This document shows positions 42,601 through 64,000 of a stretch of DNA of 64,000 bases, piece after piece (within the stretch, counting starts at the first letter, position 1; each line of letters starts with the position of its first letter). Both the position numbers and the translations under genes were made by a program. The stretch is from NCBI GenBank assembly GCA_017934975.1, contig JAGBIM010000023.1:62001-126000 (forward strand), written 5' to 3'. This stretch comes from Clostridia bacterium (GTDB lineage Bacteria; Bacillota; Clostridia; Oscillospirales; UBA644). The notes under the pieces were generated by a model. It saw only the letters and a list, made by a program, of their open reading frames with translations, made no database searches and was not told the DNA's origin.

Positions 42601-42618
42601 AGAGATCCGAAAAAGTCA

Positions 42619-42644: not shown

Positions 42645-42653
42645 GTTCTTCCG

Positions 42654-43415: not shown

Positions 43416-43434
43416 AAAAAACGACTCCTTTTTC

Positions 43435-43457
43435 GTATTATAATTCTATTATAATAC
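43435..43457. promoter_or_regulatory. Palindrome over the AraC-gene -10 box
   Basis: GTATTATAAT and ATTATAATAC, perfect 10-bp arms around TCT, overlapping the -10 (43448-43453). A likely operator, for autoregulation or joint control of the divergent mannosidase promoter about 40 bp away. Confidence 0.5.
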
Positions 43458-43476
43458 AAATCATAAGAAAAAGCAA
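43448..43476 (-). promoter_or_regulatory. Promoter of the AraC-family regulator
   Basis: On the minus strand TTGCTT (43476-43471), 17 bp, TATAAT (43453-43448). Confidence 0.65.
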
Positions 43477-43496
43477 TACTTTCCCGCAAAAAAATA

Positions 43497-43526
43497 TTGT
43501 AAAGAAGAAAACATTCGTGCTATAAT
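43497..43526 (+). promoter_or_regulatory. Promoter of the GH38-ROK-SIS operon
   Basis: TTGTAA (43497-43502), 18 bp, TATAAT (43521-43526) with extended -10 TGC. The non-consensus -35 suits an activator-dependent promoter. Confidence 0.7.
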
Positions 43527-43549
43527 AAAAGAAAAAGGAGTTTTTTGGC

Positions 43550-46866: not shown

Positions 46867-47453
46867 TTCACGAACTGATCTTGCGTTATCCCCAACTGAA
46901 GGTCTGCGAAGCGGACGTTGTGGGGGCAAAGAATGCGATGGTAAAAACCTATCGGCAGGGCGGAAAAATTCTGCTCTGCGGAAACGGGGGCAGCGCCGCG
47001 GACTGCGACCATATTGCGGGAGAATTGCTGAAGGGCTTCCGTTCTCTGCGTCCCGTAACCGATGAGACGATTCCCGAAGACCTGCGGGCGAAGCTTCAGG
47101 GCTCCCTTCCCGCCGTTTCTCTGCACAGCGCCAGCGCCGCCATGACCGCAAGCCTCAACGATCTGGACCCGAACATGGTCTACGCCCAGATGCTCCACGG
47201 GTTGGGAGAAAAAGGAGATCTTCTGATCGCCCTGTCCACCTCGGGAAATGCGCAGAACGTCTGCAACGCAGCCCGTCTGGCACGGGCGAAGGGACTTACG
47301 GTGATTGGACTGACGGGCGAAAAGGGCGGAAAGCTGAAGGAGCTTTCGGATCTTTGCATCTGCGTGCCCGAAACCGAAACCTATAAGGTGCAGGAGCTGC
47401 ACCTGCCCGTCTATCATTATCTTTGTGCACAAACGGAACAAGAGCTTTTTTAA
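46863..47453 (+). CDS. SIS-domain phosphosugar isomerase, GmhA-like
   Basis: 196 residues with the SIS fold typical of sedoheptulose-7-phosphate isomerase: LLCGNGGSAADCDHIAGEL, LIALSTSGNAQNV, GLTGEKGGKL and a late HLPVYHYLC. Heptose synthesis genes are absent, and the gene sits in a mannosidase/kinase unit. Another phosphosugar substrate is therefore plausible. AGGAGG lies upstream and the start overlaps the kinase stop (ATGA). Confidence 0.88.
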   Translation: MIHELILRYPQLKVCEADVVGAKNAMVKTYRQGGKILLCGNGGSAADCDHIAGELLKGFRSLRPVTDETIPEDLRAKLQGSLPAVSLHSASAAMTASLNDLDPNMVYAQMLHGLGEKGDLLIALSTSGNAQNVCNAARLARAKGLTVIGLTGEKGGKLKELSDLCICVPETETYKVQELHLPVYHYLCAQTEQELF

Positions 47454-47535: not shown

Positions 47536-49698
47536 TTATTCCGTAATTTTCCGCGTTTCGCCCTTCTTCATCAGGAAGGTTTCGATTTGATCGGTTATGG
47601 GATTGAGGATCTTCACGGTGCCCTCCTTGCGAGCAAAAAGCTCCACGGAGACCACCTTTCCGCCCTTGGCGACGGCGGAAACCTTCACGTTTCCGAAGGC
47701 CAGAAGCCCTTCGAAGGAGCAATCCTGCATCCACCCTTGGGGAACGGCGGGGAACAGACGAATCACTCCGTCGTAGCATTGCATCAACATTTCCTGCAAA
47801 GCCTCCGCCATCATCATGTTGGATTCCAGGGTGAAGGGGCGGTAGGTATGCTTGGTCAGTCCCGTTCTGCGATAGTCCCCGTTGAGATGGAACCCGTTGA
47901 CCGAATAGAGACAGTCGGTCAGTTGGCGCAGGTGCAGAGCGGCACTTTCTCCATCCCCGAGGCGAGCCTCTAAGTCGGCAATCCACGCAAAGGAGAAGCC
48001 CACCCACCAGTCGGAGCCCAAATTCAAGATATGGTTCACGCTGTCCTGCAGGATCTTACGGTTTTTCGGGTCGGACAGATCCACCAGATTCAGGGGGAAA
48101 ACCTGCATCATGTGGGACAGATGGCGGTGGGATTCCGCCAAGGGATATCCCTCGTAGAGCTGATACCCGGTTTCGTCCACGGGATATTCGGGCAGGCGAC
48201 CGTAGATTTGACGGTATTCCGCAGAATCGGCGTATCGGATCAAAGTCTCATACAAAAAGCGCACCAGAGCCAAATCGTAGGTACTGATTTTGGGGAGCCA
48301 GGCGGAGATTTCGTTATCGTTGATTTCGGGAGAGGAAGACAGAGGCAAAACCAGTTTGCCGTCTTCCCGTTTCTCCAGCCAGCGGCGCACGACGGTCTCG
48401 CATTCCTTCAGTTGCGGCAAAAGGGTTTCCTGCAGGAAGGATTCGTCACCGGTATATTGATAATACTGATAAAAAACGTGCAACTCCCAGATCTGGTTGG
48501 TGATATTGGTGGCGTACATGGGCCAGCCCCCGAGAGAGGTGCCGTCGAAGGCAAAGACGGAGGGCAGGCAGGCACCGCCGGGAGCATCAAAGAAGGTGCG
48601 GGCAAAATCCCGTCCCGCGGTGCGGTTGCGCGCCGTGAAGAAATCGGTAAAGCATTCAAATTCTTCCAAGTGATCCGCCTTCAAGGGGGCGTAATAGGAG
48701 AATTGCAGATTCAAGTCCCCGTGATAATCGCCCTTCCAGGGAGGCAGATGTCCGTTGTCCGCCGTCCAGACGCCCTGCAAGGGCATGGGATAGAACCCTT
48801 TGCGGGAGCAGGAGCCGAGATAATAATGGGTCAAATACCAGTTCTTTTCCAGAACCTTATCGGGCAGGGTCACGGCGCTCTTCCGCCAGAAGCCTTCCCA
48901 CCAGGTCAGATGGTGGGTCAACGCCGCGTCATATCCCGTTTCCAGTGCTTTTTGCAACGCGGCGGCGGCCTTCTCCAGCCATCCGTCTCCCTCTCGGGAG
49001 GATGCGATATAATAAACCGCCTCTACCCCTTCTGTCGTCACCTTTTCCGCGTACAACAGAGCAAATCCCCCGTCGGGAATGAACTGAACCCGTCCACGCA
49101 CCGAACCAAAGAAGACCTCTTCTGCAGGGGCGTATTTCAATTTCCGCGCGCTGTTTGCGTTGAGGGAATACTTCCCCTCCGTGGGAGGCGCCGTAAAATC
49201 ATGGGTAAACAATTCCACGCGGGGCGTTGATCCCGTAATTTTCAAATAGCCGAACCGATCTTTTGCAGACAAAAAGGCTCGGATTTGGGTCTCCCCTTCT
49301 GCGGTTTCGACCGAAATCTCCGCCTCCGCCCGCTGCAGAGAAAGGTGGCTGCGGACGTTCGTGGGAGCATCAAAAAACAACTGCAGATTCCCGGCAGGAA
49401 GCTTCGTAGGATAGGGATAGTTACAATAAAACACGTCAAACCGATCGAGAATTTCCTGCTGCTTTCCTTCCCGCACCAGACGGACCAAATCTTCGTAGGT
49501 ATAATCTACATCCAAAACCTCCGGGGCAGGGCGACAATCCCACAAATCTCCCCGATCGAGAGAAAGCTTCAGCGGCGCGCCGTCACCGTAAATCAAGCAA
49601 CCCGTAAGGCCGCTGCCCAAGGGGATCGCTTCGTCCCAAAGGGAAATGGGAGACGAAAAATCAAGATCGCAATAAGTGGGAACGGTATTTTTCTTCAT
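47536..49698 (-). CDS. GH95-like alpha-L-fucosidase family protein
   Basis: 720 residues. The N-terminal beta domain is LWDEAIPLGSGLTGCLIYGD and LSLDRGDLWDCRP. An (alpha/alpha)6 barrel follows with PLQGVWTADNGHLPPWKGDY, HGDLNLQFSYYAPL, SSSPEIND (candidate acid) and SHRHLSHMMQVFPL. GH95 enzymes invert alpha-1,2-fucosides and some cleave alpha-galactosides. The Asn-rich base motif is less conserved here, so specificity is uncertain. No signal peptide. The start at 49698 has GGAGGAAC upstream. Monocistronic, with its own promoter. Confidence 0.82.
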   Translation of the reverse strand: MKKNTVPTYCDLDFSSPISLWDEAIPLGSGLTGCLIYGDGAPLKLSLDRGDLWDCRPAPEVLDVDYTYEDLVRLVREGKQQEILDRFDVFYCNYPYPTKLPAGNLQLFFDAPTNVRSHLSLQRAEAEISVETAEGETQIRAFLSAKDRFGYLKITGSTPRVELFTHDFTAPPTEGKYSLNANSARKLKYAPAEEVFFGSVRGRVQFIPDGGFALLYAEKVTTEGVEAVYYIASSREGDGWLEKAAAALQKALETGYDAALTHHLTWWEGFWRKSAVTLPDKVLEKNWYLTHYYLGSCSRKGFYPMPLQGVWTADNGHLPPWKGDYHGDLNLQFSYYAPLKADHLEEFECFTDFFTARNRTAGRDFARTFFDAPGGACLPSVFAFDGTSLGGWPMYATNITNQIWELHVFYQYYQYTGDESFLQETLLPQLKECETVVRRWLEKREDGKLVLPLSSSPEINDNEISAWLPKISTYDLALVRFLYETLIRYADSAEYRQIYGRLPEYPVDETGYQLYEGYPLAESHRHLSHMMQVFPLNLVDLSDPKNRKILQDSVNHILNLGSDWWVGFSFAWIADLEARLGDGESAALHLRQLTDCLYSVNGFHLNGDYRRTGLTKHTYRPFTLESNMMMAEALQEMLMQCYDGVIRLFPAVPQGWMQDCSFEGLLAFGNVKVSAVAKGGKVVSVELFARKEGTVKILNPITDQIETFLMKKGETRKITE

Positions 49699-49726: not shown

Positions 49727-49755
49727 ATTATACACGATATTCGTCCCGTTGTCCA
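49727..49755 (-). promoter_or_regulatory. Promoter of the GH95-like gene
   Basis: On the minus strand TGGACA (49755-49750), 17 bp, TATAAT (49732-49727) with TG one base off the extended -10 position. Confidence 0.65.
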
Positions 49756-49792: not shown

Positions 49793-49822
49793 AAAAAGGA
49801 GAGTCTTGTGACTCTCCTTTTT
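49793..49822. terminator. Terminator of the eight-gene ABC operon
   Basis: AAAAAGGAGAGT and ACTCTCCTTTTT, 12 bp, 6-nt loop. Lies 13 bp past the stop of the last permease gene. Confidence 0.9.
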
Positions 49823-49835
49823 GAATTGCGTAAGA

Positions 49836-50843
49836 TTATTCCACCAGACCGGAACGCTCAATACTTTGGATAAAGTACCGTTGTGCAAACAGGAAGACGA
49901 TCAGCAAGGGGAAGATGATCAACAGACACGCCGTATCGTTGATAGCGGCGATCTGCGCTTCGTCGGTGATGGAAGAAGCAACGATCTTAGCCTTGATGGA
50001 AAGAATTTCCATGTTGCGCAAAAGCATACTGTTGTAGGTGGTATCCGTCCACTGCCAGGTGAAGGCAAAGAGGAAGACGGTGATCATCATGTTGGCCGCG
50101 TTGGGCAGCATGATGGAGAAGAAGGTGCGGAAGAATCCTGCGCCGTCGATGTAAGCGGAGTTTTCCAATTCCTTCGGGAGTCCGCGGAAGAACTGACGCA
50201 TCAGATAGATGTACAAACCACTCTTCAAGCCGAGACCCGTTGCGGAAAGGATAACCACAGGCCACATTTCCCCAACCAGATTGATATCCGATCCGAGGAA
50301 GTGAGAGAAGCGGATGGAAAGGGGCAACTGAATGGTCTGTGCGGGGATCATCAGCGTCAACAGAACGATGACGAACAACAAGTCCTTACCCTTAAACTTA
50401 AAGCGGGCAAATCCGTAACCGGACACCGCCGCCACGAACAACTGGAAGATGGCAACCATCAGAGACATCCCGGCGGTTTTCCAGAATGCGGTCCAATAGT
50501 TCATGTTGAGCATGGCGCGCTCGATGAAGTAGGTAGATCCTTGTCGGGGAACGTACATAACCGTGTTATCCACGATATCTTCCGTACTGGAAAGAGCAAC
50601 GACCAGTTTGACGAAGAAGGGGTAGAGGATCATGTAGGAAATACCGACGATGATCACGAAACGGAGCAGAATCCAGATCCCTTTTCCGAGACCGTTCAGA
50701 TTCAGATTGCGGCGCTTCCAGGTAGCCCAGTTGAATTTCTCCCGCTGGACCTTATTCCCGGAACGCATTTCCGCCATGAAGCTCTTCTTGCGCTTTTTGC
50801 CAAGGAAGGGAATCTTACTCAAGAAAGACGTTTTTTCACTCAT
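49836..50843 (-). CDS. Carbohydrate ABC permease, MalG type (second pair)
   Basis: 335 residues. A basic cytoplasmic extension of about 55 residues precedes six membrane helices. The EAA loop, which docks the ATPase, reads ELENSAYIDGAGFFRTFF. A long loop (EDIVDNTVMYVPRQGSTYF) follows the first helix, as in MalG/LplC-type permeases. It forms a pair with the gene 13 bp upstream. Last gene of the operon. The ATPase must be a shared MsmX/MsmK-like protein encoded elsewhere. Confidence 0.88.
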   Translation of the reverse strand: MSEKTSFLSKIPFLGKKRKKSFMAEMRSGNKVQREKFNWATWKRRNLNLNGLGKGIWILLRFVIIVGISYMILYPFFVKLVVALSSTEDIVDNTVMYVPRQGSTYFIERAMLNMNYWTAFWKTAGMSLMVAIFQLFVAAVSGYGFARFKFKGKDLLFVIVLLTLMIPAQTIQLPLSIRFSHFLGSDINLVGEMWPVVILSATGLGLKSGLYIYLMRQFFRGLPKELENSAYIDGAGFFRTFFSIMLPNAANMMITVFLFAFTWQWTDTTYNSMLLRNMEILSIKAKIVASSITDEAQIAAINDTACLLIIFPLLIVFLFAQRYFIQSIERSGLVE

Positions 50844-50856
50844 TTCAATCCCCTCC

Positions 50857-51819
50857 TTAATCCTGATAGACGATTAACTTCTTCACCAACAGGAAGACCA
50901 CGCCGACGAAGAGCAGCAACAATAGCGTGTACATCCACGAGAAGGCCGATGCAACGGTATAGGTCGCGCTGTTTTCGTAATATTTCCCGATATAGGAAAT
51001 GGTCTGGTTATCCACGCTGGTAAACAGGTCAATAACGGTGTAAAGCAGGTTTACGAGAATCAGGGGAGAGATCATGGGGAAGGAAATCTTCCAGAACACT
51101 TCCCAGCCCGTAGCACCTTCCACCTTTGCAGCTTCGTACATGTTGATGGAAATGGACTGAAGACCGGAAAGGAAGATCAGCATCTGCACCCCGGAAGAGG
51201 TAATCACGGTGTAAAGACCGCTGATGGCCGAAGAGATGATCTCCGCCAATCCCGAGTTTCCTAAGGTGGAAAGAAGCATCGCTTGAATTTCTTCGAAGTT
51301 GAAGGCACTGGTTTCGGTACCTACGTTCAGCTTTTCGCCGGAGGAATAGGTATCGGTCATGGTAGCCTGATTATCGAAGAAGGTAACGATACCGGTGGAC
51401 ATAACCACGGGGATGAAGAAGATTACGCGGGCGATGGCGCGGCCGTGGAAGTTCTGATTCAGAATGTTTGCCATAAAGAAGGCAAAGATCAGAATGATGA
51501 AAATCTGCGGCAAGAGCGCAATGGTGGAGGAATAGACGGTTTTCAGGAAGTCCTTTTCCACCGTCAAGGCGCGATCGTAGTTCTGCCAGCCAACGTAGGA
51601 AAGCTCTTCCCCGTATTTTCCTACGCTCTGTGCGAAGGAGAACTGGATGGACTGAATCAGCGCGGGAATGTAAATGGCAATCAAGCCGAGGATGATGGGA
51701 GAGACGAACACGTAGCCGAACAAGCTCTTTTTGCGCTCCAAGGACATGATAGGCTTTCTCGGCGCCTTGGTTTTCATCGGTGCAACGGTTACGTCTGCAA
51801 CTGCTTTTACTTCAGCCAT
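50857..51819 (-). CDS. Carbohydrate ABC permease, MalF type (second pair)
   Basis: 320 residues, six helices after a cytoplasmic start (KAPRKPIMSLERKKS). The EAA loop reads MYEAAKVEGATGWEVFW. The extracellular loop between helices is unusually long (about residues 135-195, including QATMTDTYSSGEKLNVG). It starts 3 bp after the DUF5696 gene, so translation is coupled. Confidence 0.88.
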   Translation of the reverse strand: MAEVKAVADVTVAPMKTKAPRKPIMSLERKKSLFGYVFVSPIILGLIAIYIPALIQSIQFSFAQSVGKYGEELSYVGWQNYDRALTVEKDFLKTVYSSTIALLPQIFIILIFAFFMANILNQNFHGRAIARVIFFIPVVMSTGIVTFFDNQATMTDTYSSGEKLNVGTETSAFNFEEIQAMLLSTLGNSGLAEIISSAISGLYTVITSSGVQMLIFLSGLQSISINMYEAAKVEGATGWEVFWKISFPMISPLILVNLLYTVIDLFTSVDNQTISYIGKYYENSATYTVASAFSWMYTLLLLLFVGVVFLLVKKLIVYQD

Positions 51820-51822
51820 TGT

Positions 51823-54800
51823 TTAACCCTCCTGTCCTGCATCTTCGCCGATCTGCTGAATTTCGGGACGAGTTTCGTATGCAGCATCGGTCTTTTGGAT
51901 TGCTTCATATTCTTCCAAGGTATAAACCTCGTAAGACAGAGCCTTGACGACCCGACGGTCGTTGAGTTCTACGTCGAAGGGATTGTAGTTCACCACAACC
52001 ACCTTCTTGTCGCCGTAAACGGTAGCGAACACCCCGCCCTTGCTGGAGATGCGTTCTACGGCAGGGGTAATGATGATGTTGCCTTCCTTATCGGTGACGT
52101 ACTTCCCGGTCTTGGGATCGATCTCGGGATCGTTCCAACCGATCAAACCTTCGTGATCCAGAACGAAGAACGCATCCAGTTCCTTATGTTCGGTAATGGG
52201 ATCGTTCACCACGTCGTTCAGAACGGCAGCTGCCTCCTTATAAAGAGCAACGGCGCGATCGAAGGTGGACTTGTAGTTCAGCGAGAAGTAGTTATAATAG
52301 GGAGTGTAGTCAAAGATGGAATCTTCTGCACCCATCCAACGGAAGGAGGGCGCGGAACCAGTTTCCAGAGTAAGCAAGAGTGCCGTCTTATAGTCGCCGG
52401 TCTGGTTCACGGGTTCCATCGAATAGTTTACGTAACCGTGAAGAATCATCTGCGTGAAGGGAATTGCGGAATCCTGCGTCAGATATTCGGTAGAACCGGA
52501 AGGCAGACCGAAGATATGGGACGCATACTTCCAGGTGTAGAAGTTACCGGTCGAAACGGCAATTTCATATCCGTCGTTGGCGTAGGTTGCCAAGATCTTG
52601 GAGTGATCCAATTCCGCCAGGCCACGGGAAACCCCTTCATTGGTCTTATAGTTGGAGTGAAGACCCTGACCAAGGGACCCAAGGGCAATGCTCTTCTTAT
52701 CGGTGGAGAAAACTTCTTCGAAGGAAGTCTTATAGCTTTCAGCAATTTCCACGGAAACTTTGGAGGAAAGAAGGGTCTTTTCTTCCAGATCCTCGCGCAG
52801 GGAGCCGATGGCATTCATGCGTTCCACGATGGTGGCCATAGAACGGTTCATGCGGCGGGCAGCATCCTGAGAGGCACTGAAGCCGTTCCCGGTAGAAGTG
52901 ACGTAAAGCAATTCCACGGAGGGGAAGAAGCCGACGCCGTTGGTTTCACAGAAGCTTACCAGCGATTTCAGTTCGTCTTCCGAGCCCATGCAATCGACCA
53001 GAACGAGATCTTCCGCAAAGGTATTGTTTTCCCCGCCGTTTGCCCAGTAAGAGTACCGGGTAACCACGTTATTGACTTCGGCGGCTTTCAGATCAGACAG
53101 AATGGTCTGTGCCTGCGAATAGGAGGTCAGGGCCGTTTCGGTCTGCATGGGAATTCCGAAGAAGGTCTGGCTCAGGTCTACGCAACCGAGAAGATCCACG
53201 TAGAAGGGAAGGGCCGATTCCTTCAGAGTTTCCTTGGGGAAGAGATCCTTCTGCATAAAGTACTCACGCAGGAAGGCAGCGTATTCGGAATAAGTCAAGC
53301 CGCCTTCGGTGAAGAGGTACTGAATCTTGTAATTCCCCGTCACGTCATCCTTGGAGAGCAACAAACCGGAACCGGTTTGGCTATCGTCGGAGAGCATATT
53401 CCCCGAGAAGGAGGTGCTGTAGGTACGGTAGTCCCGTTCGGAGTAAACGATTTCATAGTTGATGGTGGCAACGGGAGAAGCGGTTCCGTTGACGGGACGA
53501 GCCACGACGCTCGCCTGTCCGGCCCCTTCTTCCAGAATGGCAACCACACCGCCTCCGTTCATACGGGCGGAGTTTTCGGGCAATGCACCACGGTCAAAAA
53601 TCATGTAAGGAGCCAGAATTTGCTCCGAATAGTCCACGCTGTATTCCTTATCAAAGGAACCGTCGGGACCGTAAACGCGGCCTTTATAAACGTCCTTGGC
53701 AAGATTTCCGTCCACCTTGATCACAGCGCCGGAGCCGTCGGGAACGATCATGTAACCCTGGCTGATGCTGGTAACGGGATCAAGAACGCCGGAGGTACCG
53801 CCGAAGCCGCGGTATACGTTGATGGTGTTCAGTCTCTGCTTGGTAGGTCCGAGAATCATCGAAGAGTCGATATTGACGCACAAACCGTTTTCGTTCAGAG
53901 ACAAGTCAACGGGAATGGTGTAAAGAACGGAACGTTCCGGACCTTGATAGTCGGCCTTTTCCATTTCCGCCTTTACTTCCTGTGCCGTAAAGCCGATCTG
54001 CTCCATCAGGACCTTAATATCCTTCTTCTGTCTGGAGGTGGTACCGGCGTAGGAAACGTAGAGGGTCATAACGTCGATGGTGGGGAAGGTCTCGCGGAAG
54101 CGTTCCCGGTCATCGATGGTAACGGCTCTGGGCTTGACGTAAGGATAGATATTCTTTTCGAAATTCTCTTTTTCCTCGTCGTCCAGCTCCTTGGGCGTCA
54201 TGTAGGTGTAACAAGCCTTCAGGAGTTTGCCGTAATCGTCATATTGCTTCTGGGTAATTTCCTGATTGGCAAGAAGTTCGTCCAGAGACTTGATGATACG
54301 GTTGTTCCAAGTGTCCTCGGTAATAACCGGGGGGAACAGATCTTTATCGGGGTCGTTTCCGATGGTGTAAATCAAACGGATGGTATCGTCGTTCTTCACC
54401 ACGTAGAAAGCTCCGGAGCCGTTATCCCAACAGTTATTGTAGAAGTTAAAGGAATACCGTTTCCCGGAAGCGTCGTAGGCTTCTACCGACAAAGGAGAAC
54501 CAATGATCTTGGCCGCATTCGCGTTGGTTTTCTTATCGGGGTCACGGGAGGGGTTAGAGTGATACGCCTGGCGGGTTTCCTTATCCAACACGGCAATATC
54601 CGTAGTTTTGAAGTCAATGTACAGTTCGTATCTTTCATTGGCCAAAACCTTGGACATATCGGTCAGACCGGTCATAGCACCTTCGCCTTTGCTGACCAAG
54701 GTGTAACCGTCGGGCTGTTTGAAGTAGGGATTCTCCCCTTCTTCATCCTCAATCTGAGGAGCGTACAGAATCTGCGCGTCTTCCGCATACAGCATCTGAT

Positions 54801-54933
54801 TGATAAATTCCTGACGGGCAGCGTCGGAAACTTCGTTGGATTCCGACGAGTCAAGACCGCAGGAAGACAGGATCATTGCCAGAAGCAAGACCCCCGTAAT
54901 CAAAACGAGTAATTTCTTTGTCATCGATTTCAT
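51823..54933 (-). CDS. DUF5696 lipoprotein, giant putative glycan-processing protein
   Basis: 1036 residues. The lipobox LSSC puts the lipid on Cys25. A beta-rich N-terminal half (YELYIDFKTTDIAVLDKETR, YRGFGGTSGVLDPV, MIVPDGSGAVIKVDG) is followed by what reads like a TIM barrel from about residue 560. Barrel strands are LPFYVDLLG, VNNVVTRYSYW, VGFFPSVELLYV, LATYANDGYEIAV, and FTQMILHGYVNYSMEPVN. That pattern is seen in several glycoside hydrolase clans. Acidic residues at strand ends (Asp, Glu of PSVELL) are candidates but unproven. AAGGAGG lies 9 nt before the ATG at 54933. It sits between the Yip1 gene and the second permease pair. Confidence 0.75.
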   Translation of the reverse strand: MKSMTKKLLVLITGVLLLAMILSSCGLDSSESNEVSDAARQEFINQMLYAEDAQILYAPQIEDEEGENPYFKQPDGYTLVSKGEGAMTGLTDMSKVLANERYELYIDFKTTDIAVLDKETRQAYHSNPSRDPDKKTNANAAKIIGSPLSVEAYDASGKRYSFNFYNNCWDNGSGAFYVVKNDDTIRLIYTIGNDPDKDLFPPVITEDTWNNRIIKSLDELLANQEITQKQYDDYGKLLKACYTYMTPKELDDEEKENFEKNIYPYVKPRAVTIDDRERFRETFPTIDVMTLYVSYAGTTSRQKKDIKVLMEQIGFTAQEVKAEMEKADYQGPERSVLYTIPVDLSLNENGLCVNIDSSMILGPTKQRLNTINVYRGFGGTSGVLDPVTSISQGYMIVPDGSGAVIKVDGNLAKDVYKGRVYGPDGSFDKEYSVDYSEQILAPYMIFDRGALPENSARMNGGGVVAILEEGAGQASVVARPVNGTASPVATINYEIVYSERDYRTYSTSFSGNMLSDDSQTGSGLLLSKDDVTGNYKIQYLFTEGGLTYSEYAAFLREYFMQKDLFPKETLKESALPFYVDLLGCVDLSQTFFGIPMQTETALTSYSQAQTILSDLKAAEVNNVVTRYSYWANGGENNTFAEDLVLVDCMGSEDELKSLVSFCETNGVGFFPSVELLYVTSTGNGFSASQDAARRMNRSMATIVERMNAIGSLREDLEEKTLLSSKVSVEIAESYKTSFEEVFSTDKKSIALGSLGQGLHSNYKTNEGVSRGLAELDHSKILATYANDGYEIAVSTGNFYTWKYASHIFGLPSGSTEYLTQDSAIPFTQMILHGYVNYSMEPVNQTGDYKTALLLTLETGSAPSFRWMGAEDSIFDYTPYYNYFSLNYKSTFDRAVALYKEAAAVLNDVVNDPITEHKELDAFFVLDHEGLIGWNDPEIDPKTGKYVTDKEGNIIITPAVERISSKGGVFATVYGDKKVVVVNYNPFDVELNDRRVVKALSYEVYTLEEYEAIQKTDAAYETRPEIQQIGEDAGQEG

Positions 54934-54947
54934 AGTCCTCAACCTCC

Positions 54948-55685
54948 TTACTCGTTCAGTCGGAATACAACTTCCGTCCAAATCTCCATGCCGAAGCTGG
55001 TGACCTGTTGGAGAAGGAAGAAGATCAGAATCGCAACGAATGCAATCACCGCCATACCGACGATGGTGAGAATCGTAGTTCCCAAGCCCTTCGCAACGGA
55101 ATACTGGTGAACGATGATCATTGCAAGGAAAATATACAGGTAGCCCCAAACCATACCCAAGGAGCCGATGAAGGTGAAGATGCTGCCTTCCGCAGAGGAA
55201 AGGAAGTGGCTCAAGGGGATCTGGATCAGGTTACAGAGGGTCATGGGAAGGGTTGCAAAAGCGGTGGTCATCAGAACGTCGGAAAGCTTTCCGTCGCCGT
55301 CCATCAAGGAAGAGAAGCACCAGTTTGCAACGGCCCACATGATGTAGGGAAGCACGGAGGTAATCAGATAAACGGGAACGTTCAATTCCAGCTGTGCTCC
55401 CCGATCGGCAAACAGATAGCCGAGAGACTGGAAGCGGATCAGCGCAACCAGCGCGTAAACAACCAGCCACATCACGCCGGCGGAAACCGAACGGCGCTTG
55501 GGATCGTTCTTCAGATCGAAGAATCCGTCAAAGGGATGGAACAGAATGTAAAAGGCGTAGCCCATGCGCTTGAAGGTGGTCTTGGTTCCCTGCCATAATT
55601 TAGGAAGGAAAGCCCGAATCCACGCCCCAAAATCGCCCATCATGGTACCGAAGGAGAAGCCGGATTTCTTTTCAGTTTTTTCCAT
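54948..55685 (-). CDS. Yip1-family membrane protein
   Basis: 245 residues with five or six membrane helices and a conserved cytoplasmic lead-in (FYILFHPFDGFFDLKNDPKR). Bacterial Yip1 proteins have no settled role. This family member is embedded between the propeller protein and the DUF5696 lipoprotein. The start overlaps the propeller gene stop by 1 bp. It may serve as the membrane platform of the complex. Confidence 0.8.
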   Translation of the reverse strand: MEKTEKKSGFSFGTMMGDFGAWIRAFLPKLWQGTKTTFKRMGYAFYILFHPFDGFFDLKNDPKRRSVSAGVMWLVVYALVALIRFQSLGYLFADRGAQLELNVPVYLITSVLPYIMWAVANWCFSSLMDGDGKLSDVLMTTAFATLPMTLCNLIQIPLSHFLSSAEGSIFTFIGSLGMVWGYLYIFLAMIIVHQYSVAKGLGTTILTIVGMAVIAFVAILIFFLLQQVTSFGMEIWTEVVFRLNE

Positions 55686-57478
55686 TATTCTGCATCTCCT
55701 TTCTTGGCACGGTTAATCATGGGACCTTGATCCACACGTTTTTTCATGGCTTTGGCAGCCTTTTTCTTCTTCTGTGCACGCACGATTTTCAATACGATCA
55801 GACCGACGATCAAAACGCCGATGACGCCGAAGATCAAACCGAAATACTTTTCCAACTCATTGCCGCGCAGTGCGGTGTAAGCCACGGAATAGTTATCCTT
55901 TTCGCTGGCACGGTCGAAGTAAAAAATTGCCTTCTCGTAGTGATCCAACGCATTCATACCGTTGGCGTCTCGCTGATCGTCAATCAGCGCCATCGCCAGG
56001 CGCATTTCTGCTTTGCCCAAACCGATGTTGGCAATAAACATGTTGGAGTTGTAGGAAAGGACTTCCTGCCACAAAGGAATGGAAGTTTCCCACAAGCCGT
56101 TGGCAGAAGCCTGCGCAGCCTCGTTAATAGCCTTTACGTAATCGGTGGCGCGGAATACGGTGATGGTCTTTGCGGTGGTGTCGGAAATATAAACGTAATC
56201 GCCCTGCGTTTCCAAAGCCGCAGGCATCTGGAAGGTACCTTGAGAGGTTCCCTTGCCACCGGCCAGATACAACAGGTTCCCGTCCGCATCGTAGGTAAAG
56301 AATCGTCCGGTCTGCTGATCGAGAATCGTATAGCGGCCGCTGTCGCTCTGTACGGAAATATCAATAATCTTGGGAGAGACTTCCTTGGAGGGGGCCCAAA
56401 CCAAGTCGCCCATGGGATTTGCCAAGCCTTTACGGCGAAGCATATCGGTTCCGTCGGCAGAAAGCTTCTTGACGGGAGAATGGGAGGGGCTGATAGAAAG
56501 GGCACGCAACCCCTTGACCGCAGCGTCATCCAGAGCGGAAATGGTGGGATAAATAAAGCCGCGCTTGTCGATGGTCAAGCTGCTGTACTCGGTGGGAGTA
56601 AAGGTAACCATCTGAGCCAGCTGCTCTTCCGTGGCGAAGTTGCGCCACAGACGTTCCCACGCGCTGATCAAAACGTCGGGAGCACCGAAGAAGGCACGGA
56701 ATTCTCCGTCACTGTTGATCTGCATAATTCCGCGGTTGATACCGGAACAAATAACCTGAAGGTCGCCGGTATTATCAACCACCAGACGGGTGGGCTTGAA
56801 GGAATAAAGATCACCGAGAACAGAAACCTTGATCTGCTGATAAACCTGGGAGACCTGCCCCTTCAGGTTGCAAACCACGATGCGCTGATTATCCGTATCG
56901 GAGATGTAGATCACGGGATCCTTTTTTCCGTCGCCGTCTTCATCCACGTCGCCGGTTACCACGAAGATTCCCATGGGGCCCTGCAACTCGAACTTGTTAC
57001 CGCCGGTCATAACCACGGGTCCGGTGGGAGCCTCTGCATCGGCTTCGGGGCTTCCTGCGTCCAGGTCGGGAACCTCTTCCCCGTCCTCGGTTTCGGAAGA
57101 ACCATCCTGAACCACGTAGATATCGGGAATATTGTCGCCGGAGAGACGACTGATGGTGGTCACGAGCTTATACTCGTCGTCCAGCACGTAAACGCAACGG
57201 TTCTTCGCGTCAAGGACGTAAAGATAGCCGTCGTGATAGTGAAGGTCAACGGGCTCAAAGGGTTGTTTTACCGTTCCGTTGGGAACGATGTCGGGATAAG
57301 AAATTACCCGATCGACGGTGAAGGCAAGGGGGGCCGAAGCGTCATTGCCGTTCACGTCGTAAAAATAAGAGTTCGAAACATTGTTAATGGGCAACGCAAA
57401 TGCGGAAACCGCAAATCCCAGAGAAAGAGCGAGGACGAGCACCGTAACAATGAGAGCTTTTACAAAAGATTGTTTCAT
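55685..57478 (-). CDS. NHL-like beta-propeller and TPR membrane protein
   Basis: 597 residues. Signal peptide or first helix (about 1-29). A beta-propeller with NHL-style blades runs from about 35 to 430 (PVDLHYHDGYLYVLDAKNRC, DPVIYISDTDNQRIVVCN, GDYVYISDTTAKTITVFRA). It is interrupted by an acidic loop near 125-155. A TPR-like helical stretch (about 430-540) and a C-terminal membrane helix (about 545-567) with a Lys-rich tail follow. The propeller is outside, tethered by the helix. Family members carry protein-protein or glycan contacts rather than catalysis. It starts 20 bp after the first permease pair. Confidence 0.78.
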   Translation of the reverse strand: MKQSFVKALIVTVLVLALSLGFAVSAFALPINNVSNSYFYDVNGNDASAPLAFTVDRVISYPDIVPNGTVKQPFEPVDLHYHDGYLYVLDAKNRCVYVLDDEYKLVTTISRLSGDNIPDIYVVQDGSSETEDGEEVPDLDAGSPEADAEAPTGPVVMTGGNKFELQGPMGIFVVTGDVDEDGDGKKDPVIYISDTDNQRIVVCNLKGQVSQVYQQIKVSVLGDLYSFKPTRLVVDNTGDLQVICSGINRGIMQINSDGEFRAFFGAPDVLISAWERLWRNFATEEQLAQMVTFTPTEYSSLTIDKRGFIYPTISALDDAAVKGLRALSISPSHSPVKKLSADGTDMLRRKGLANPMGDLVWAPSKEVSPKIIDISVQSDSGRYTILDQQTGRFFTYDADGNLLYLAGGKGTSQGTFQMPAALETQGDYVYISDTTAKTITVFRATDYVKAINEAAQASANGLWETSIPLWQEVLSYNSNMFIANIGLGKAEMRLAMALIDDQRDANGMNALDHYEKAIFYFDRASEKDNYSVAYTALRGNELEKYFGLIFGVIGVLIVGLIVLKIVRAQKKKKAAKAMKKRVDQGPMINRAKKGDAE

Positions 57479-57497
57479 TCCAGATACTCTCCTTTCC

Positions 57498-58460
57498 TCA
57501 GTCTTTCATACCGGAGGTAGCCATGGTTTCAATAATGTTACTCTGGGTGATCAGGAAGGTCAGAACGGGAACGATCATCATGATAACGTTAATAGCCATG
57601 GAAACGCCGGCACGGGCAACGCCTTCTGCAGCGATCTGCCCCATTGCGTAGTTCAGAGTCTTCAACTCTTCGCGGTAGATGTAAATGGTAGCACCCTGGT
57701 TCCAATAGTCCTTAACCGAGAAGACGATCAAGGTCATCCAGGCGGGCTTCATGTTGGGCATCAGGATATTCCAGAAAATACGGAATTCCCCTGCGCCGTC
57801 GATGCGGGCCGCTTCCAGAACCGAGTCGGGGAACTGGTCCACGAAGCCGCGGATCAGATACAGAGAGAAGGAAGAGCCGAGGGCGGGGATCAGCAAGCAC
57901 AGCCAGGTGTCGATCCACCCGAAGCTTGCCATGATCAGATAGTTTGCCAACGCTGCAGCGGGAGCCGCAAACATCAGGGTCATGGTGATGAGCTTGTTGA
58001 TGGTCTTGCGCCCCTTGAAGTTGGTCTTGGAAAGGGGGTACGCCGCCATGGAAGCGGAGATAACGCGCAAGAAGGTAGCGCCGATGGTAATGAACAGGGT
58101 GTTAAACAGATAGCGGGTAAAGGGAACCGTGGAGTTGGACAGGATCGTAAACATGTCCCGATAGTTCGCCCCGGTGGGGTTCTTCACGATCAGGTTCGGG
58201 GGGAACAACCACAATTCGTGCAAGGGCTTGAAGGAGTTGGAGATGGCGTAGATCATGGGGAAAGCCATGAACACACCGGCAATCAGCAGGAAGAGCACCA
58301 TTGCGATATCGCCGCCGACGGAACGGTTTACGCGACTCTTAATGAGCTTTTTCTTCTTGTAATAGATCCGGTTGCCTTCTTCGTCGTACTTGGGACGCTT
58401 GCGGAAGATCCCAACCGTTTCCTGCTTATTCTTCGGAAGTTTAATTTCTTCTGTATTCAT
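57498..58460 (-). CDS. Carbohydrate ABC permease, MalG type (first pair)
   Basis: 320 residues. A charged cytoplasmic start (FRKRPKYDEEGNRIYYKKKK) precedes six helices. The EAA loop is VLEAARIDGAGEFRIFW. The loop after helix 1 (LHELWLFPPNLIVKNPTG) is typical of MalG/YtcP permeases. It lies 14 bp after its MalF-type partner. Confidence 0.9.
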   Translation of the reverse strand: MNTEEIKLPKNKQETVGIFRKRPKYDEEGNRIYYKKKKLIKSRVNRSVGGDIAMVLFLLIAGVFMAFPMIYAISNSFKPLHELWLFPPNLIVKNPTGANYRDMFTILSNSTVPFTRYLFNTLFITIGATFLRVISASMAAYPLSKTNFKGRKTINKLITMTLMFAAPAAALANYLIMASFGWIDTWLCLLIPALGSSFSLYLIRGFVDQFPDSVLEAARIDGAGEFRIFWNILMPNMKPAWMTLIVFSVKDYWNQGATIYIYREELKTLNYAMGQIAAEGVARAGVSMAINVIMMIVPVLTFLITQSNIIETMATSGMKD

Positions 58461-58474
58461 TTCATTAAACCTCC

Positions 58475-59389
58475 TTATTTACCGATTCGGTCAAGCACGA
58501 ACTGAACGACCTTGTTTGCCAGGATAGAGATCAGGAAGAGCAGGGCCGCAATGGCACAGGCGTAACCCATCTCGTAGCGGACGTTCCCGTAGTCGTGCAA
58601 GTGGTGCATGATGGTGTGTAGCTTGTATTCCTGGGTGGGGAAGCCGAAGACTGCGGTGATAATCCCGTCCACGCCGAAGGAGCCGGTGATGGCCAGAATT
58701 GCACCGAACATCAGCTGTCCGCGCATCTGGGGCAGAGTGATGTAGTACAGTTCCTGCCAGCGGTTCTTGATTCCGTCCACGGCGCCCGCCTCGTAGAGGG
58801 AGCGGTCGACGGTCTGAAGACCTGCGATAAAGGTCAGGAAGGTGGTACCCAGAGACTGCCACAGAATGATGATAATACAAACGGTGAACATATAATCGGT
58901 ATCAACGGTCCAACGGATGGGTTCCGAAATGATATCGAATTCCTGGAGCCAGGCGTTGATGTAACCGTAGGAGTCGTTACTGAAGAGCAACGCCCAAACG
59001 GCGCTCATACCGCCGGACAGGGAGGGCGCGAAGAACAACAGGGTCATGAACGCACGGGGCTTGGGGGGAATTTCGTTGACCAGCCACGCGAAGGCGAAGC
59101 AGAGCAAGTACCCGACGGGGCCCGTGATACACGCGATAATCAAGGTGTTCTGAATCGCGGTAGAGAAAACGCTGTCGTTCAGGAAGAGCTTTGCGTAGTT
59201 GTCAAGGCCGACGAAGTCGGGCAATTCCAACATGTTGAAGTTGGTCAAGCTGATGAAGATAGAAACCAGAACCGGAAGAATCGTGAACAGGAAGAAGGTC
59301 ACGAGGAAGGGCCCGAGGAAGACCACGAGGCTCAACCGCCGATTGCGGTTCGCACGCTTCAAGCTTGCGGATTTAACAGTATTTTTCAT
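58475..59389 (-). CDS. Carbohydrate ABC permease, MalF type (first pair)
   Basis: 304 residues, six helices, with an EAA loop LYEAGAVDGIKNRWQELYYI, spaced slightly differently from the canonical motif. It follows the binding protein gene by 18 bp, the usual order for CUT1 sugar importers. Confidence 0.9.
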   Translation of the reverse strand: MKNTVKSASLKRANRNRRLSLVVFLGPFLVTFFLFTILPVLVSIFISLTNFNMLELPDFVGLDNYAKLFLNDSVFSTAIQNTLIIACITGPVGYLLCFAFAWLVNEIPPKPRAFMTLLFFAPSLSGGMSAVWALLFSNDSYGYINAWLQEFDIISEPIRWTVDTDYMFTVCIIIILWQSLGTTFLTFIAGLQTVDRSLYEAGAVDGIKNRWQELYYITLPQMRGQLMFGAILAITGSFGVDGIITAVFGFPTQEYKLHTIMHHLHDYGNVRYEMGYACAIAALLFLISILANKVVQFVLDRIGK

Positions 59390-59407
59390 TTCCTATCCTC
59401 CCCCGCA

Positions 59408-62400
59408 TCAATTCGCAGCATCGGACTGGGAAGCGCCGGAGTAAGAATCACTATAAGGAAGATTCAGCTGTTCTCTCTTATACTTGATTTCTTTGTTGAT
59501 TTCCTGAACGTAGTTCAGAAGCGTTTCTCTGGCATCCGTGTAGTCGTCAAGCACTTCGTTGAATGCAAATGAATAGTAACGAGAGTAGTAGTAACCACCG
59601 ACCTGTTCTTCGTAGCCAACGGTGTTTTCCCACTGATCCATGATAGACTTCAGTTCTTTGGTGGTCCAGGGCAGCCGCTGTGCGGCTTCCAGGTTTGCGG
59701 TGTTATAGCGGGCGGCAATACCGAGGGATGCTTCCAGTTCGATACCGTATTCGTACTGGGCATCCGCACCGGCCCACCAGGTCATCCAAGCCCAGCAAGC
59801 CTTGCCGTGTTCTTCCCCCTTATTCACGCCCTGGTTCAGGAGGGCGATGGAGGAAACGGAGGTGGTGGTCTTGTAGTTGATTACCTGATTGCCGTCTGCA
59901 TCCAGCTTGGGCGTTCCGTCTTCGTTATAAACTTCCGTACCGGGAACGGTGGTAAAGGTCCAGCTTCCGCGGATTTCGGGAGCGGCAACACACAGGGTGT
60001 TGTAGAAGGACAGAGGCTGCATTCCGACAGGCATTTCGCCGAAACGGAAGCGGTTCTGGAAGTTAAAGGACTTGGGACAGTTATAGGTAATGTAATAGTC
60101 GGTAACGGCGATGAAGGACTGGATGGCGGTTTCGCTGTCCAGATTGATCTGGTAGCCGTTGTTCTTATACAGGGTTTCGTCGCGCTGATAGAGCAGGGTG
60201 AGGAAATCCGGGGGTGCAAAGTCCATGTACCGCTTCTTCAAAACGGCGATCATGTCGTAAACCTCGGTCCAGGTCTTGGGAATTTCCACACCCAGGTCAG
60301 CCATCACGTCTTCCCGGTAGAAAAGAAGGTCGAAGGACTGCTTTTCGGGAAGACCGTAGGTGTTCATCTGGGTACCCAGATCGCGGTTGTTGGGATCCTT
60401 GAACATTTCCAGGGTGATGGAGGTAAAGGCGGTATCGGAGAACCAGGTCTTTACTTCGTCAAACCCGGGAACCTTTTCATATCCCGCCTGCGCACCGTCC
60501 AGCGTAAAGCCTTCGAAGGTGTTCAAGGGAACGAGGGCGTTACGGGAGGCGTAGTTAATAATATCGGTAGAGCCGAGACCCATAACGATATCGGGGCCCT
60601 TGCCAGCAAAGACGGAGGGCAACAACGCACCGCCGGGAACCAGCTTGATATCCACGCCTATATTATATTGGTTGATAAAGGCGCGTTCAATCAGTCTCTG
60701 TTTGATCTCCGCACGTTCCTTACCGGTGGTAGCCCAGATGGAAACGGTAGTATCAAAGGTCTTGTCGGTGGTGGCACCGATGGCGTTGGAGTCGGTGGTG
60801 AAGGAAGCGGCGAACATGACGATGTTGTGCCACAGATCTTCGAAGAAGTTGGATTCCGCATCACCGGGAACGTAATCGGGTTCGGCAACCAGAATGTAGT
60901 CGATTTCCAGGGGCTGGTTGCGCATGGTGCTCAGCCAGGAACCCAGGTTGGTAATCTGGTTCTTGAAGTTATCAAAATAGGAAGGTATTTCGTCGGGATC
61001 GTCGGCCATATCGTACAGAACGGAAATAACGTTGTAAACGATAGCGGTCTGCTGACCTTCGCCTCCGAGGATTTCGATGAGGTTGTTGTAAATGCTCATC
61101 AGAATATCGCCCTGAGCCTTCAGGTCGGAAATCACGTCGGGAATTTCTTCGTCCAGCTTGTAATCACGGAATTCATCGGGGTCGGATCCGGTGATCTGCA
61201 TGATCTTACGGTAGTCGTTGTTCAGCTTGCTGACGACCGTATCCACGGCGTTGATATAATCACTCAATTCGCCGGTGGTAGCGGTGATACGGACGATATT
61301 CTCCCCTTCGTTGAACTTGAACAGCAATTCCTTACCGTAGTCGTCTACGGGGGTGGACATAATCCAAGAACTGTCGTAGGGGAAGCGGATCCGGGTCGCC
61401 TCGGCAACGGGAGTTTCTCCGTTCACCGTAATCTGACGGCTGGAGAAGGTACCGGACACGAGGTTCTGACGTGCCCGAAGAACGATCTTGTAAAGACCGG
61501 TTTGAGGCACGTTGACCTTATATTCCACCCATTGACCGGAGGTGTTCCAGTTGTCGCCGCCCAGTACGTTGTACTTCAGACGGGCGGAAGACTGGGGCTG
61601 GGTAGCCGCAGAGGAACGGTCGTAACCGGAGTACACGGAGGTGGAGGACTTGGCGTAAGGATATTCCGCCTGGATCTTTGCCACCAGCTGGTCACCGGAA
61701 ATGACGTACTTGCTGTTCTCTGCCAGATACTCCGTGTAGGAAGAGGATTCCTGAACCCCGTACAGATACAGGGAGGAGAGCGCCAGAGGCTCGCGGCTGG
61801 TGGAGAGACGGATGGTGCGGACACCCTTTTCCAAATAGAACTGGAGAGCTCCGTCGTAAGAACCGGTGGAATCCTTGAAGTAAGAATTGTCGATCCACTG
61901 ATGCTTCTCCACGGAAGAGGGACGGATCTGGTTTCCGTTAATATCTTCCACGAAGTAACCATCCATAATGCCGTCGGCATCGGGTTCGGTTACCCGGTCG
62001 GGGAACACGAGGGAGTCCACGTATACGCGGTCCAAGGCCGCGGTACGGGCTTCGGTATAGGGAGATTCGCCGTCGATGGTGATGCTCCGTTCGATGGCAA
62101 CGCCCTTCCCGGGGACCGTGTAATAAGAGCAGCCGAGACCGTACAGACCGGTCGCGTTGATTTCCACCTGGAACTCAACGTATCCGTCTTCGTTGTCGGT
62201 GGTCACAAGAACATTCTTGCGACCCTCATACTCACTCTTCAGCTCGACGTCGTCGCTGGCGGAAGAATACTTGGTTAGGTCGATCTGAATCACTTCTTCC
62301 GATGCGGCGGCACGGGCGTAGGCCTGCAGATATTCGCCGTAAGAACCTGCCTTGTAGATCGCGACGAAGGGCACGGAGGAATCAAGTTCCGTGATCGACT

Positions 62401-62479
62401 TCGCGAAGGAGGCGACGGTCAACATCTGGACTGCCATCACGACGACCAGAATCGCCGCGATAACTTTGCTTTTGCGCAC
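59408..62479 (-). CDS. Giant two-part extracellular sugar-binding protein
   Basis: 1023 residues, more than twice the family norm. An N-terminal signal or anchor (about 1-27) leads into two beta-sandwich, carbohydrate-binding-module-like regions. One is near residues 60-260 with YVEFQVEINATGLYGLGCSY; the other near 300-420 with WVEYKVNVPQTGLYKIVLRA. A helical linker follows, then from about residue 575 a family 1 solute-binding fold (VSIWATTGKERAEIKQRL, KGPDIVMGLGSTDIINYASR, LLFYREDVMADLGVEIPKTW). GTG at 62479 was chosen: AGGAAGG lies 9 nt upstream and the hydrophobic leader follows at once. No lipobox is seen, so it is probably anchored by the uncleaved leader. First gene of the operon. Confidence 0.82.
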   Translation of the reverse strand: MRKSKVIAAILVVVMAVQMLTVASFAKSITELDSSVPFVAIYKAGSYGEYLQAYARAAASEEVIQIDLTKYSSASDDVELKSEYEGRKNVLVTTDNEDGYVEFQVEINATGLYGLGCSYYTVPGKGVAIERSITIDGESPYTEARTAALDRVYVDSLVFPDRVTEPDADGIMDGYFVEDINGNQIRPSSVEKHQWIDNSYFKDSTGSYDGALQFYLEKGVRTIRLSTSREPLALSSLYLYGVQESSSYTEYLAENSKYVISGDQLVAKIQAEYPYAKSSTSVYSGYDRSSAATQPQSSARLKYNVLGGDNWNTSGQWVEYKVNVPQTGLYKIVLRARQNLVSGTFSSRQITVNGETPVAEATRIRFPYDSSWIMSTPVDDYGKELLFKFNEGENIVRITATTGELSDYINAVDTVVSKLNNDYRKIMQITGSDPDEFRDYKLDEEIPDVISDLKAQGDILMSIYNNLIEILGGEGQQTAIVYNVISVLYDMADDPDEIPSYFDNFKNQITNLGSWLSTMRNQPLEIDYILVAEPDYVPGDAESNFFEDLWHNIVMFAASFTTDSNAIGATTDKTFDTTVSIWATTGKERAEIKQRLIERAFINQYNIGVDIKLVPGGALLPSVFAGKGPDIVMGLGSTDIINYASRNALVPLNTFEGFTLDGAQAGYEKVPGFDEVKTWFSDTAFTSITLEMFKDPNNRDLGTQMNTYGLPEKQSFDLLFYREDVMADLGVEIPKTWTEVYDMIAVLKKRYMDFAPPDFLTLLYQRDETLYKNNGYQINLDSETAIQSFIAVTDYYITYNCPKSFNFQNRFRFGEMPVGMQPLSFYNTLCVAAPEIRGSWTFTTVPGTEVYNEDGTPKLDADGNQVINYKTTTSVSSIALLNQGVNKGEEHGKACWAWMTWWAGADAQYEYGIELEASLGIAARYNTANLEAAQRLPWTTKELKSIMDQWENTVGYEEQVGGYYYSRYYSFAFNEVLDDYTDARETLLNYVQEINKEIKYKREQLNLPYSDSYSGASQSDAAN

Positions 62480-62601: not shown

Positions 62602-62630
62602 ATTATAATATATTTCGCCCTCTTTGTCAA
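62602..62630 (-). promoter_or_regulatory. Promoter of the eight-gene ABC / DUF5696 operon
   Basis: On the minus strand TTGACA (62630-62625), 17 bp, TATAAT (62607-62602). Near-consensus, which suggests control by the leader terminator or an upstream-bound protein. Confidence 0.85.
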
Positions 62631-63033: not shown

Positions 63034-64000
63034 TCAACCGTTCGAAGCTTCGTCCCCTTGCGGGAGGTCGGAAGTCTCCGTTTCGGCAGCCGCTCCCGTA
63101 TCGGAAGGAGTCCCTCCGTCGGTCACTCCCCCATCGGGAGCATCCGAAGCTGTTCCGGAAGTTTCGGAGGAAGCCGTATCGGGGGGCGTTCCACCGTCCG
63201 AAGACTCGTCCCCGGGCCGGTCGGTCACGGAAGGAGCGGAAGACCCCGAAGCAGGGGTACTTACGCCTCCGCTGTCGGGAGGAACATCCGAGGAAACGGG
63301 AGGAGTATCGGTCACCGTAACAGGGGGTATTCCCGTCTCCGTGGCGGGGACATCCGTCACCGTGGGAGGCACCTGCGTACCCGTGTCGGTCACGGTCCCA
63401 GAATCGGGCACGTCGTTGGGGTCCGAAGGAAGATCCGTCGAAGGCGCGTCCGTCGTGGGCTCGTTGGGCAATCCGTCCGTTGCAGGGGGATTTTCCACGT
63501 TCAAAGCCTCGTGACGCACCAATACCGCGTGGACGGCAACCCGTACGTTTTCATCTGACCCCTTGCAGGTAGACAGGGTGAGAATGCGATCCGAAGCGGT
63601 AAAGTTAAACTCCTTGAAAACGGGAAGCTGATTCTTTTCCTGCAGGGTACGCAGAAAATCCACGTATTCGGAATCACTGTCGAAAGACGTACTGATGTAA
63701 TTGAAATCCACCGTCGTCTCGTACCAGGAAAAAATCTGCCAGACCGTCCGTTCCGTAGGCGTATTTACGTAGAGGAACTGATTATACCCATCCTGCTGCC
63801 AGCGGGTCTGCCGGTCAAGATACTTCAACCCACCGAAAATCAGATAGCTGCGGGCGTGCCCGTAAATAATCAGATTCCGATTGGCCCGAAGATCCGCAAG
63901 ATTGTTGCGAAAATCCGCGTAAACCCAACCGTTGTCGCTGGGCGTCCCGTCGAAGGATCGGGTGAGATAATACTCGTTGTCCGAACTCTGCACCACGGGC
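63034..64000 (-). CDS. Class B sortase with a long Pro/Ser/Thr-rich C-terminal tail (cut by window edge)
   Basis: The frame is open to the right edge, so the N-terminus is missing. The visible part starts PVVQSSDNEYYLTRSFDG, the class B sortase lead-in. It shows the catalytic histidine in NLIIYGHARSYLIFG, the cysteine in ILTLSTCKG and the arginine in ENVRVAVHAVL. After the domain comes a tail of about 155 residues, almost only Pro, Ser, Thr, Asp, Gly and Val (repeats like TDTPPVSSDVPPDSGG, SSAPSVTDRPGDESSD). That is unusual for a sortase. It probably anchors NPxTG-type substrates such as the protein at 29139-30698. A clean terminator follows. Confidence 0.88.
   Translation of the reverse strand, partial: PVVQSSDNEYYLTRSFDGTPSDNGWVYADFRNNLADLRANRNLIIYGHARSYLIFGGLKYLDRQTRWQQDGYNQFLYVNTPTERTVWQIFSWYETTVDFNYISTSFDSDSEYVDFLRTLQEKNQLPVFKEFNFTASDRILTLSTCKGSDENVRVAVHAVLVRHEALNVENPPATDGLPNEPTTDAPSTDLPSDPNDVPDSGTVTDTGTQVPPTVTDVPATETGIPPVTVTDTPPVSSDVPPDSGGVSTPASGSSAPSVTDRPGDESSDGGTPPDTASSETSGTASDAPDGGVTDGGTPSDTGAAAETETSDLPQGDEASNG

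Follow-up and report, generated by a model that had tools for sequence, protein, structure and literature searches.

The question raised by the locus described here is why two sugar-importer permease pairs should share an operon with a single giant solute-binding protein (SBP) and three proteins of no known function in such a setting. The operon is carried by a metagenome-assembled genome (MAG) of a Clostridia bacterium, within a stretch of 64,000 nucleotides (contig JAGBIM010000023.1, positions 62,001 to 126,000 of the forward strand) that is referred to below as the window. A first-pass annotation, made from the sequence alone, described the eight genes as a surface machine that binds a large glycan, processes it and imports the products by two routes. 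The cassette is, in our estimate, rather probably a conserved glycan-uptake system made of two importers, receptors, a pseudo-glycosidase and a propeller-Yip1 scaffold, powered by an unlinked ATPase and directed at a substrate that is specific to each genome.

Layout and conservation of the eight-gene cassette

The minus strand carries all eight genes between 62479 and 49836, in the order giant SBP, permeases PA and PB (pair 1), NHL-propeller/TPR protein, Yip1-family protein, DUF5696 lipoprotein, and permeases PC and PD (pair 2). The intergenic gaps range from -1 to 19 nucleotides and a good ribosome-binding site precedes every gene. A sigma-70-type promoter (TTGACA-17-TATAAT, 62602..62630, minus strand) agrees with the consensus at 12/12 positions and is the sole such match in the region, and an intrinsic terminator, read directly as AAAAAGGAGAGTC-ACAA-GACTCTCCTTTTT followed by CTT, is located at 49793..49822 (minus strand). 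The adjoining GH95 glycosidase gene (47536..49698, minus strand; PF22124, 157 bits) is a transcription unit of its own with a separate promoter at 49727..49755 (minus strand; TGGACA-17-TATAAT, 11/12), so that the operon boundaries drawn in the first-pass annotation hold. The tight packing under one promoter and one terminator was likewise correctly described, as were the lengths of the SBP (1023 aa) and of DUF5696 (1036 aa).

The distribution of the cassette was surveyed in a class sample of 292 genomes, using a Pfam search for DUF5696 and profiles for the giant SBP and for propeller-Yip1. DUF5696 scored above the cut-off in 73 genomes and its long cassette form was found in 61. The giant-SBP profile retrieved exactly the same 61 genomes and the propeller-Yip1 profile 59 of them and no others; in the remaining two, the contigs that carry DUF5696 are short or cut. 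Gene order was compared in 80 regions from the class sample and in 80 loci from a scan of named genomes, two sets which may share genomes. The scan was based on the Yip1 alignment, as those of DUF5696 and of the propeller gave no pattern conserved enough. The full order SBP-permease-permease-propeller-Yip1-DUF5696-permease-permease is kept in 61/74 loci of the class sample and 58/74 of the second scan, and most of the departing loci are apparently cut by contig ends. Real departures are rare: the second permease is relocated downstream in two loci and the last permease is missing in one genome. This recurrence of gene order is far beyond chance, and a chance co-location of the eight genes is rejected by the class survey. 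The first-pass annotation, which had grouped the middle genes with the permeases, is not refuted by this conservation test, since the middle genes are kept beside the permeases in related genomes. The order is also kept in Paenibacillus, in Cohnella and in two Treponema MAGs, whose copies adjoin those of Lachnospiraceae on the SBP tree, which suggests that the Treponema cassettes were acquired by transfer. Cultured and annotated carriers include Paenibacillus cellulosilyticus and Butyrivibrio fibrisolvens D1, on its plasmid pNP243, where the cassette comprises WAA20_RS20545-20510 and a GH43 gene lies upstream of it.

A number of loci, designated here by L numbers, show features of their own. 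In L196 (B. fibrisolvens pNP243) and L197 (P. cellulosilyticus) the cassette resides on megaplasmids (243-kb and 509-kb records). Permease PB has moved downstream of a second SBP in L060 and L061. L096 (5368-10200) and L100 (2383-7974) have no last permease and encode instead a surface-type protein of 1600-1860 aa, which in L100 carries a CBM_4_9 domain and prealbumin-like repeats. A protein of 1370-1460 aa is encoded directly 3' of the cassette in L116 (16060-20283), L117, L119 and L121, the L116 copy being without Pfam match.

Proteins of the cassette

The DUF5696 gene (51823..54933, minus strand; PF18952, 408 bits) encodes a lipoprotein with the lipobox ILSSC. Profile searches tie DUF5696 to GH129 structures through a sequence match that is weak but real. 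For the AlphaFold model of the window protein (pLDDT 83.8, pTM 0.83), the best matches (Foldseek, VIA) are GH129 structures, with Z scores of 25.4-27.9 over 564-592 aligned residues and the next rows at 18.6; the scores are 27.9 against DagB (5opq) and 25.8 against NagBb (5wzn). A GH129 fold is therefore a confident prediction from the model. According to the alignments, Ser752 (model numbering; codon 52675..52677, minus strand) replaces the nucleophile Asp435 of NagBb and Ser793 (codon 52552..52554, minus strand) replaces the acid/base Glu, which we take to be E478 of NagBb. The window protein thus belongs to GH129 by fold and departs from it at both catalytic residues, and its assignment as a GH129 enzyme was rejected. 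The loss of catalysis is strongly suggested by these replacements, and the claim that DUF5696 processes the glycan at this locus is not supported. The statement that the three middle proteins are without known function stands as far as function is concerned, although DUF5696 can now be assigned to a fold family.

The same two columns were inspected in 148 cassette DUF5696 proteins. The nucleophile column holds an acid in 44 of them, Thr being the commonest residue and no acid being conserved, and the acid/base column holds Glu in 24. Residues of the GN.Y, E.G and P-F motifs are almost invariant. We conclude that the window protein most likely binds glycan without cleaving it; among its relatives, a minority may be enzymes. 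Six stand-alone relatives of about 570 aa, encoded outside the cassette (L105-L110), all keep both the nucleophile Asp and the acid/base Glu. This subfamily matches NagBb with an E value of 1.7e-31 and the Asp-Glu spacing is 43 residues in both, so that the stand-alone proteins are probably GH129-like enzymes filed under a DUF. Genes of this kind were located at L105:6790-8502, L106:1087-2787, L108:8934-10616, L109:8492-10198 and L110:8519-10222. The DUF5696 proteins of L175 and L185 are twice as long as usual, at about 2000 aa.

The propeller/TPR protein (55685..57478, minus strand) displays a signal peptide, an NHL beta-propeller, TPR helices and a transmembrane helix (residues 548-566) near the C-terminus, in agreement with the membrane tethering proposed earlier. 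The window copy searched alone gives no Pfam NHL match; its relatives match Pfam NHL (E 1e-16) and the family profile matches NHL propellers and TPRs in the PDB, which identifies the domain as an NHL propeller. Foldseek with the propeller retrieves the NHL propellers of TRIM71/Thin. The Yip1-family membrane protein is encoded at 54948..55685 (minus strand; PF04893, 50 bits against a cut-off of 28.6), with a 1-bp overlap with the propeller gene. In 64/148 loci the two are a single protein, the fused copies also matching the Yip1 Pfam family, and the AlphaFold model of one such natural fusion (L164, pLDDT 88) consists of a signal helix, the propeller, TPR helices, a transmembrane helix and the Yip1 helices. 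On the SBP tree, a FastTree reconstruction with some long branches, there were at least 10 switches between the fused and the split state, 7 of them forced by well-supported branches. This recurrence of fusion or fission is strong evidence that propeller and Yip1 act as one membrane-anchored unit.

The giant SBP (59408..62479, minus strand) is translated from a GTG start and carries a signal peptide without lipobox. Profile and family matches give it two N-terminal CBM35/golvesin-like domains (CBM, carbohydrate-binding module), a helical spacer and a C-terminal type-1 SBP domain. When searched alone, the window protein gives no Pfam match at E 0.001. The family profile matches the SBP fold 5ysb (E 3.6e-28, profile positions 566-870) and the CBM35-type domain 5x7g (profile positions 298-401), and among 46 aligned members SBP_bac_1 is found in 39, Golvesin_C in 12 and CBM_35 in 8. 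The SBP_bac_1-type binding protein of a CUT1 importer is therefore recognized through the family profile and these 39 members. A lipobox is absent in 126/132 giant SBPs and present in 19/23 ordinary SBPs encoded downstream in relatives. The gene directly after pair 2 could be read in about 90 relatives, and in at least 48 of these it encodes such an ordinary second SBP, which is absent from the window and from the relatives closest to it. The earlier claim that one SBP serves both pairs is therefore valid for this operon but probably not in general, all the more as the correlations reported below connect the giant SBP chiefly with pair 1, and a single SBP for two importers is probably a property of the window lineage.

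Both permease pairs were confirmed as CUT1-type. Pair 1 consists of PA (MalF/UgpA type, 58475..59389, PF00528 46 bits, EAA loop EAGAVDG) and PB (MalG/UgpE type, 57498..58460, PF00528 46.5 bits, EAA loop EAARIDGAG), and pair 2 of PC (MalF/UgpA type, 50857..51819, loop EAAKVEGATGWEVFWKISFP, NCBIfam UgpA 1.8e-8) and PD (MalG/UgpE type, 49836..50843, PF00528 55 bits, loop NSAYIDGAG), all on the minus strand. PC scores 22.4 bits against PF00528 (BPD_transp_1), slightly below the Pfam cut-off of 26.4; MalF/MalG-type subunits are accordingly recognized by PF00528 in PA, PB and PD and by EAA-like loops in all four. The operon contains no ATPase, as stated in the first-pass annotation, and an OB_MalK search located a MalK-type ATPase on a different contig of the same MAG. 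A TOBE_2 match in this genome was considered as the sugar ATPase and rejected, as it is the PotA of a polyamine importer. In P. cellulosilyticus, ugpC lies directly upstream of the cassette. Shared ATPases are known for importers of this kind (PMC7658222, PMC5730181).

Partial correlations of distance matrices were calculated for 118 complete loci. One group of correlated proteins comprises PA-PB (0.49), SBP-PB (0.35) and SBP-PA (0.26), and the other PC-PD (0.39), DUF5696-PC (0.36) and propeller-DUF5696 (0.46); Yip1 correlates with PB (0.30) and with PD (0.25). Values near zero were obtained for the adjacent pairs PB-propeller, propeller-Yip1 and Yip1-DUF5696; adjacency is thus not the cause of the correlations, and gene linkage was rejected as their sole source. 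The correlations are leads and weak evidence for two groupings, the giant SBP with pair 1 on one side and DUF5696, pair 2 and the propeller on the other.

Proposed mechanism and alternatives

The surface machine for glycans described initially remains an adequate outline, given the two CBM35/golvesin-like domains of the SBP, the GH129-fold lipoprotein and the carbohydrate-active enzymes encoded beside many copies. The giant SBP would catch an oligo- or polysaccharide through its two CBM-like domains and deliver it to PA/PB. The DUF5696 pseudo-glycosidase would bind glycan at the membrane and serve PC/PD, joined in many relatives by the second, ordinary SBP. We infer that the propeller/TPR-Yip1 unit is a membrane-anchored scaffold that keeps the receptors positioned above the two importers; one shared, unlinked ATPase of the MalK/MsmX type would drive both importers. 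The neighbouring glycosidases would set the substrate, which would differ between genomes. In a stronger version, which we regard as conceivable but doubtful, these parts would form a single membrane supercomplex, found in Firmicutes and some Treponema, in which propeller-TPR-Yip1 holds two ABC importers, the giant SBP and the pseudo-glycosidase receptor, and Yip1 bridges the two MalG-type subunits, with a role comparable to that of SusCD.

Several observations weigh against the proposed glycan-uptake system. The propeller-Yip1 correlation is only 0.08 though the two are fused in nearly half of the loci, which indicates that the correlation method misses real contacts, and the SBP-DUF5696 value of 0.19 crosses the two groups. 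The lipobox and transmembrane calls come from simple pattern and hydropathy scans, and the MAG carrying the window is 71% complete. As to the pseudo-glycosidase, Asp and Glu are both kept in 10/148 cassette DUF5696 proteins, mostly of Paenibacillus, some of which may be enzymes. The nucleophile Asp is the residue common to NagBb and DagB (PMC5698469); the GH129-like DagB shares only this Asp with NagBb and requires other acids (PMC5698469), and by analogy the window protein may act through another site. An active DUF5696 with a shifted active site, in which case the cassette would cut the glycan at the membrane and import the products, would also fit an enzyme fold, the acids found at the nucleophile column in 44 members and the almost invariant motifs. 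We consider it unlikely, as the window protein has Ser at both positions and the family has Thr most commonly, and no conserved acid, at the nucleophile column.

The operon could also hold two ordinary CUT1 oligosaccharide importers, kept together by chance in a stable operon with propeller, Yip1 and DUF5696 proteins devoted to sensing or quality control, for example of flux or envelope state. NHL/TPR and Yip1 proteins are often scaffolds or adaptors, the permeases and SBP are recognizable CUT1 parts, and the divergence of propeller and Yip1 is not specially tied together. However, the middle genes co-occur all-or-none with the giant SBP, the fold of DUF5696 is that of a glycan enzyme and the protein is predicted to face outward, and family searches found no signalling domain in propeller, Yip1 or DUF5696; the sensing explanation is accordingly given little weight. 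Even less can be granted to a cargo other than ordinary glycans, such as sulfonated or lipid-linked sugars or fragments of the own cell wall, which we hold to be very improbable. In favour of such a cargo are the LLM flavin oxidoreductases flanking the cassette of P. cellulosilyticus, the sortase B-like gene ahead of the operon in the window and in the nearest relative, and the Mur-ligase genes that take this position in other relatives. Against it, the neighbours whose role is known are mostly glycosidases acting on glycans of plants or animals (GH43, GH53, GH30, GH26, GH5, GH10, GH9 and GH16), and the giant SBP bears CBM-like domains.

Substrates, related systems and neighbouring genes

A large glycan is a plausible substrate for the cassette in view of the pseudo-enzyme and the two CBM-like domains. 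The cassette neighbours among relatives include GH43, GH53, GH30, GH26, GH5, GH10, GH9, GH16 and GH3 enzymes and sulfatases, and LacI, AraC and two-component regulators stand beside many copies. Since the neighbouring enzymes differ between genomes, the substrate probably varies. At the window locus, GH95 adjoins the cassette under its separate promoter and no regulator was identified. A convergent cluster facing GH95 (41026-47453, plus strand) encodes GH123, a 251-aa protein, a GH38 alpha-mannosidase, a ROK kinase and a SIS-domain isomerase, and looks like a set for the degradation of glycoprotein glycans. GH95, GH123 and GH38 together hint at fucose-, GalNAc- and mannose-containing glycoprotein glycans of host or plant origin. 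On the P. cellulosilyticus plasmid (L197, 12629-30493), the genes at the flanks of the cassette are ugpC, three for LLM flavin-dependent oxidoreductases and additional SBP genes, a setting that points to an unusual and perhaps sulfonated substrate.

Known systems share parts of this design. The Gram-positive CUT1 importers using MsmX/UgpC, such as the pectin-oligosaccharide importers of B. subtilis (PMC5730181), likewise combine a MalF/MalG-type pair with EAA loops, a type-1 SBP and an ATPase encoded elsewhere. The cassette differs from them by its two permease pairs per operon, its SBP of 1000 aa with two CBM-like domains and no lipobox, and its obligatory propeller-Yip1 and GH129-fold partners. 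DUF5696 has its whole-length fold in common with NagBb and DagB, at 12-13% identity across about 580-590 aligned residues; unlike these, the window protein is a lipoprotein in an importer operon, with Ser in place of both NagBb catalytic residues. Gram-positive polysaccharide utilization loci resemble the cassette in that transporter genes adjoin glycosidase genes, accompanied in many relatives by LacI/AraC or two-component regulators. In the cassette, however, the eight-gene core stays constant whereas the enzymes and regulators around it vary, and GH95 of the window is separately promoted. The Sphingomonas alginate importer AlgM1M2SS with AlgQ is a Gram-negative ABC importer proposed for a long polysaccharide, with a large SBP and one permease pair; the likeness is limited to an ABC importer with a large SBP, and the alginate system has no DUF5696, propeller or Yip1.

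A literature search found no paper on DUF5696, none in which NHL repeats are linked to SBPs and permeases, and nothing on Yip1 in a setting of this type. The cassette is a real and widespread, apparently undescribed variant of the Gram-positive ABC glycan importer, carried by about one fifth of the sampled class genomes (61/292), in some of them more than once. Should it prove to be a dedicated uptake platform, it would represent a major, unnamed glycan-feeding route of gut, rumen and soil bacteria. It provides DUF5696 and bacterial Yip1 with a concrete setting, and would give both a first role should the supercomplex be true. The proposal is directly testable owing to cultured carriers, namely Butyrivibrio fibrisolvens D1, several Paenibacillus, among them P. 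xylanexedens, and Cohnella thermotolerans.

Further genes of the window may be mentioned. The sortase B-like gene located 5' of the cassette occupies positions 63034-63996, its counterpart in the nearest relative being at L115:1258-2724. An InlB-type repeat protein and an RHS-repeat protein are encoded on the minus strand at 29142-30770 and 32081-33256.

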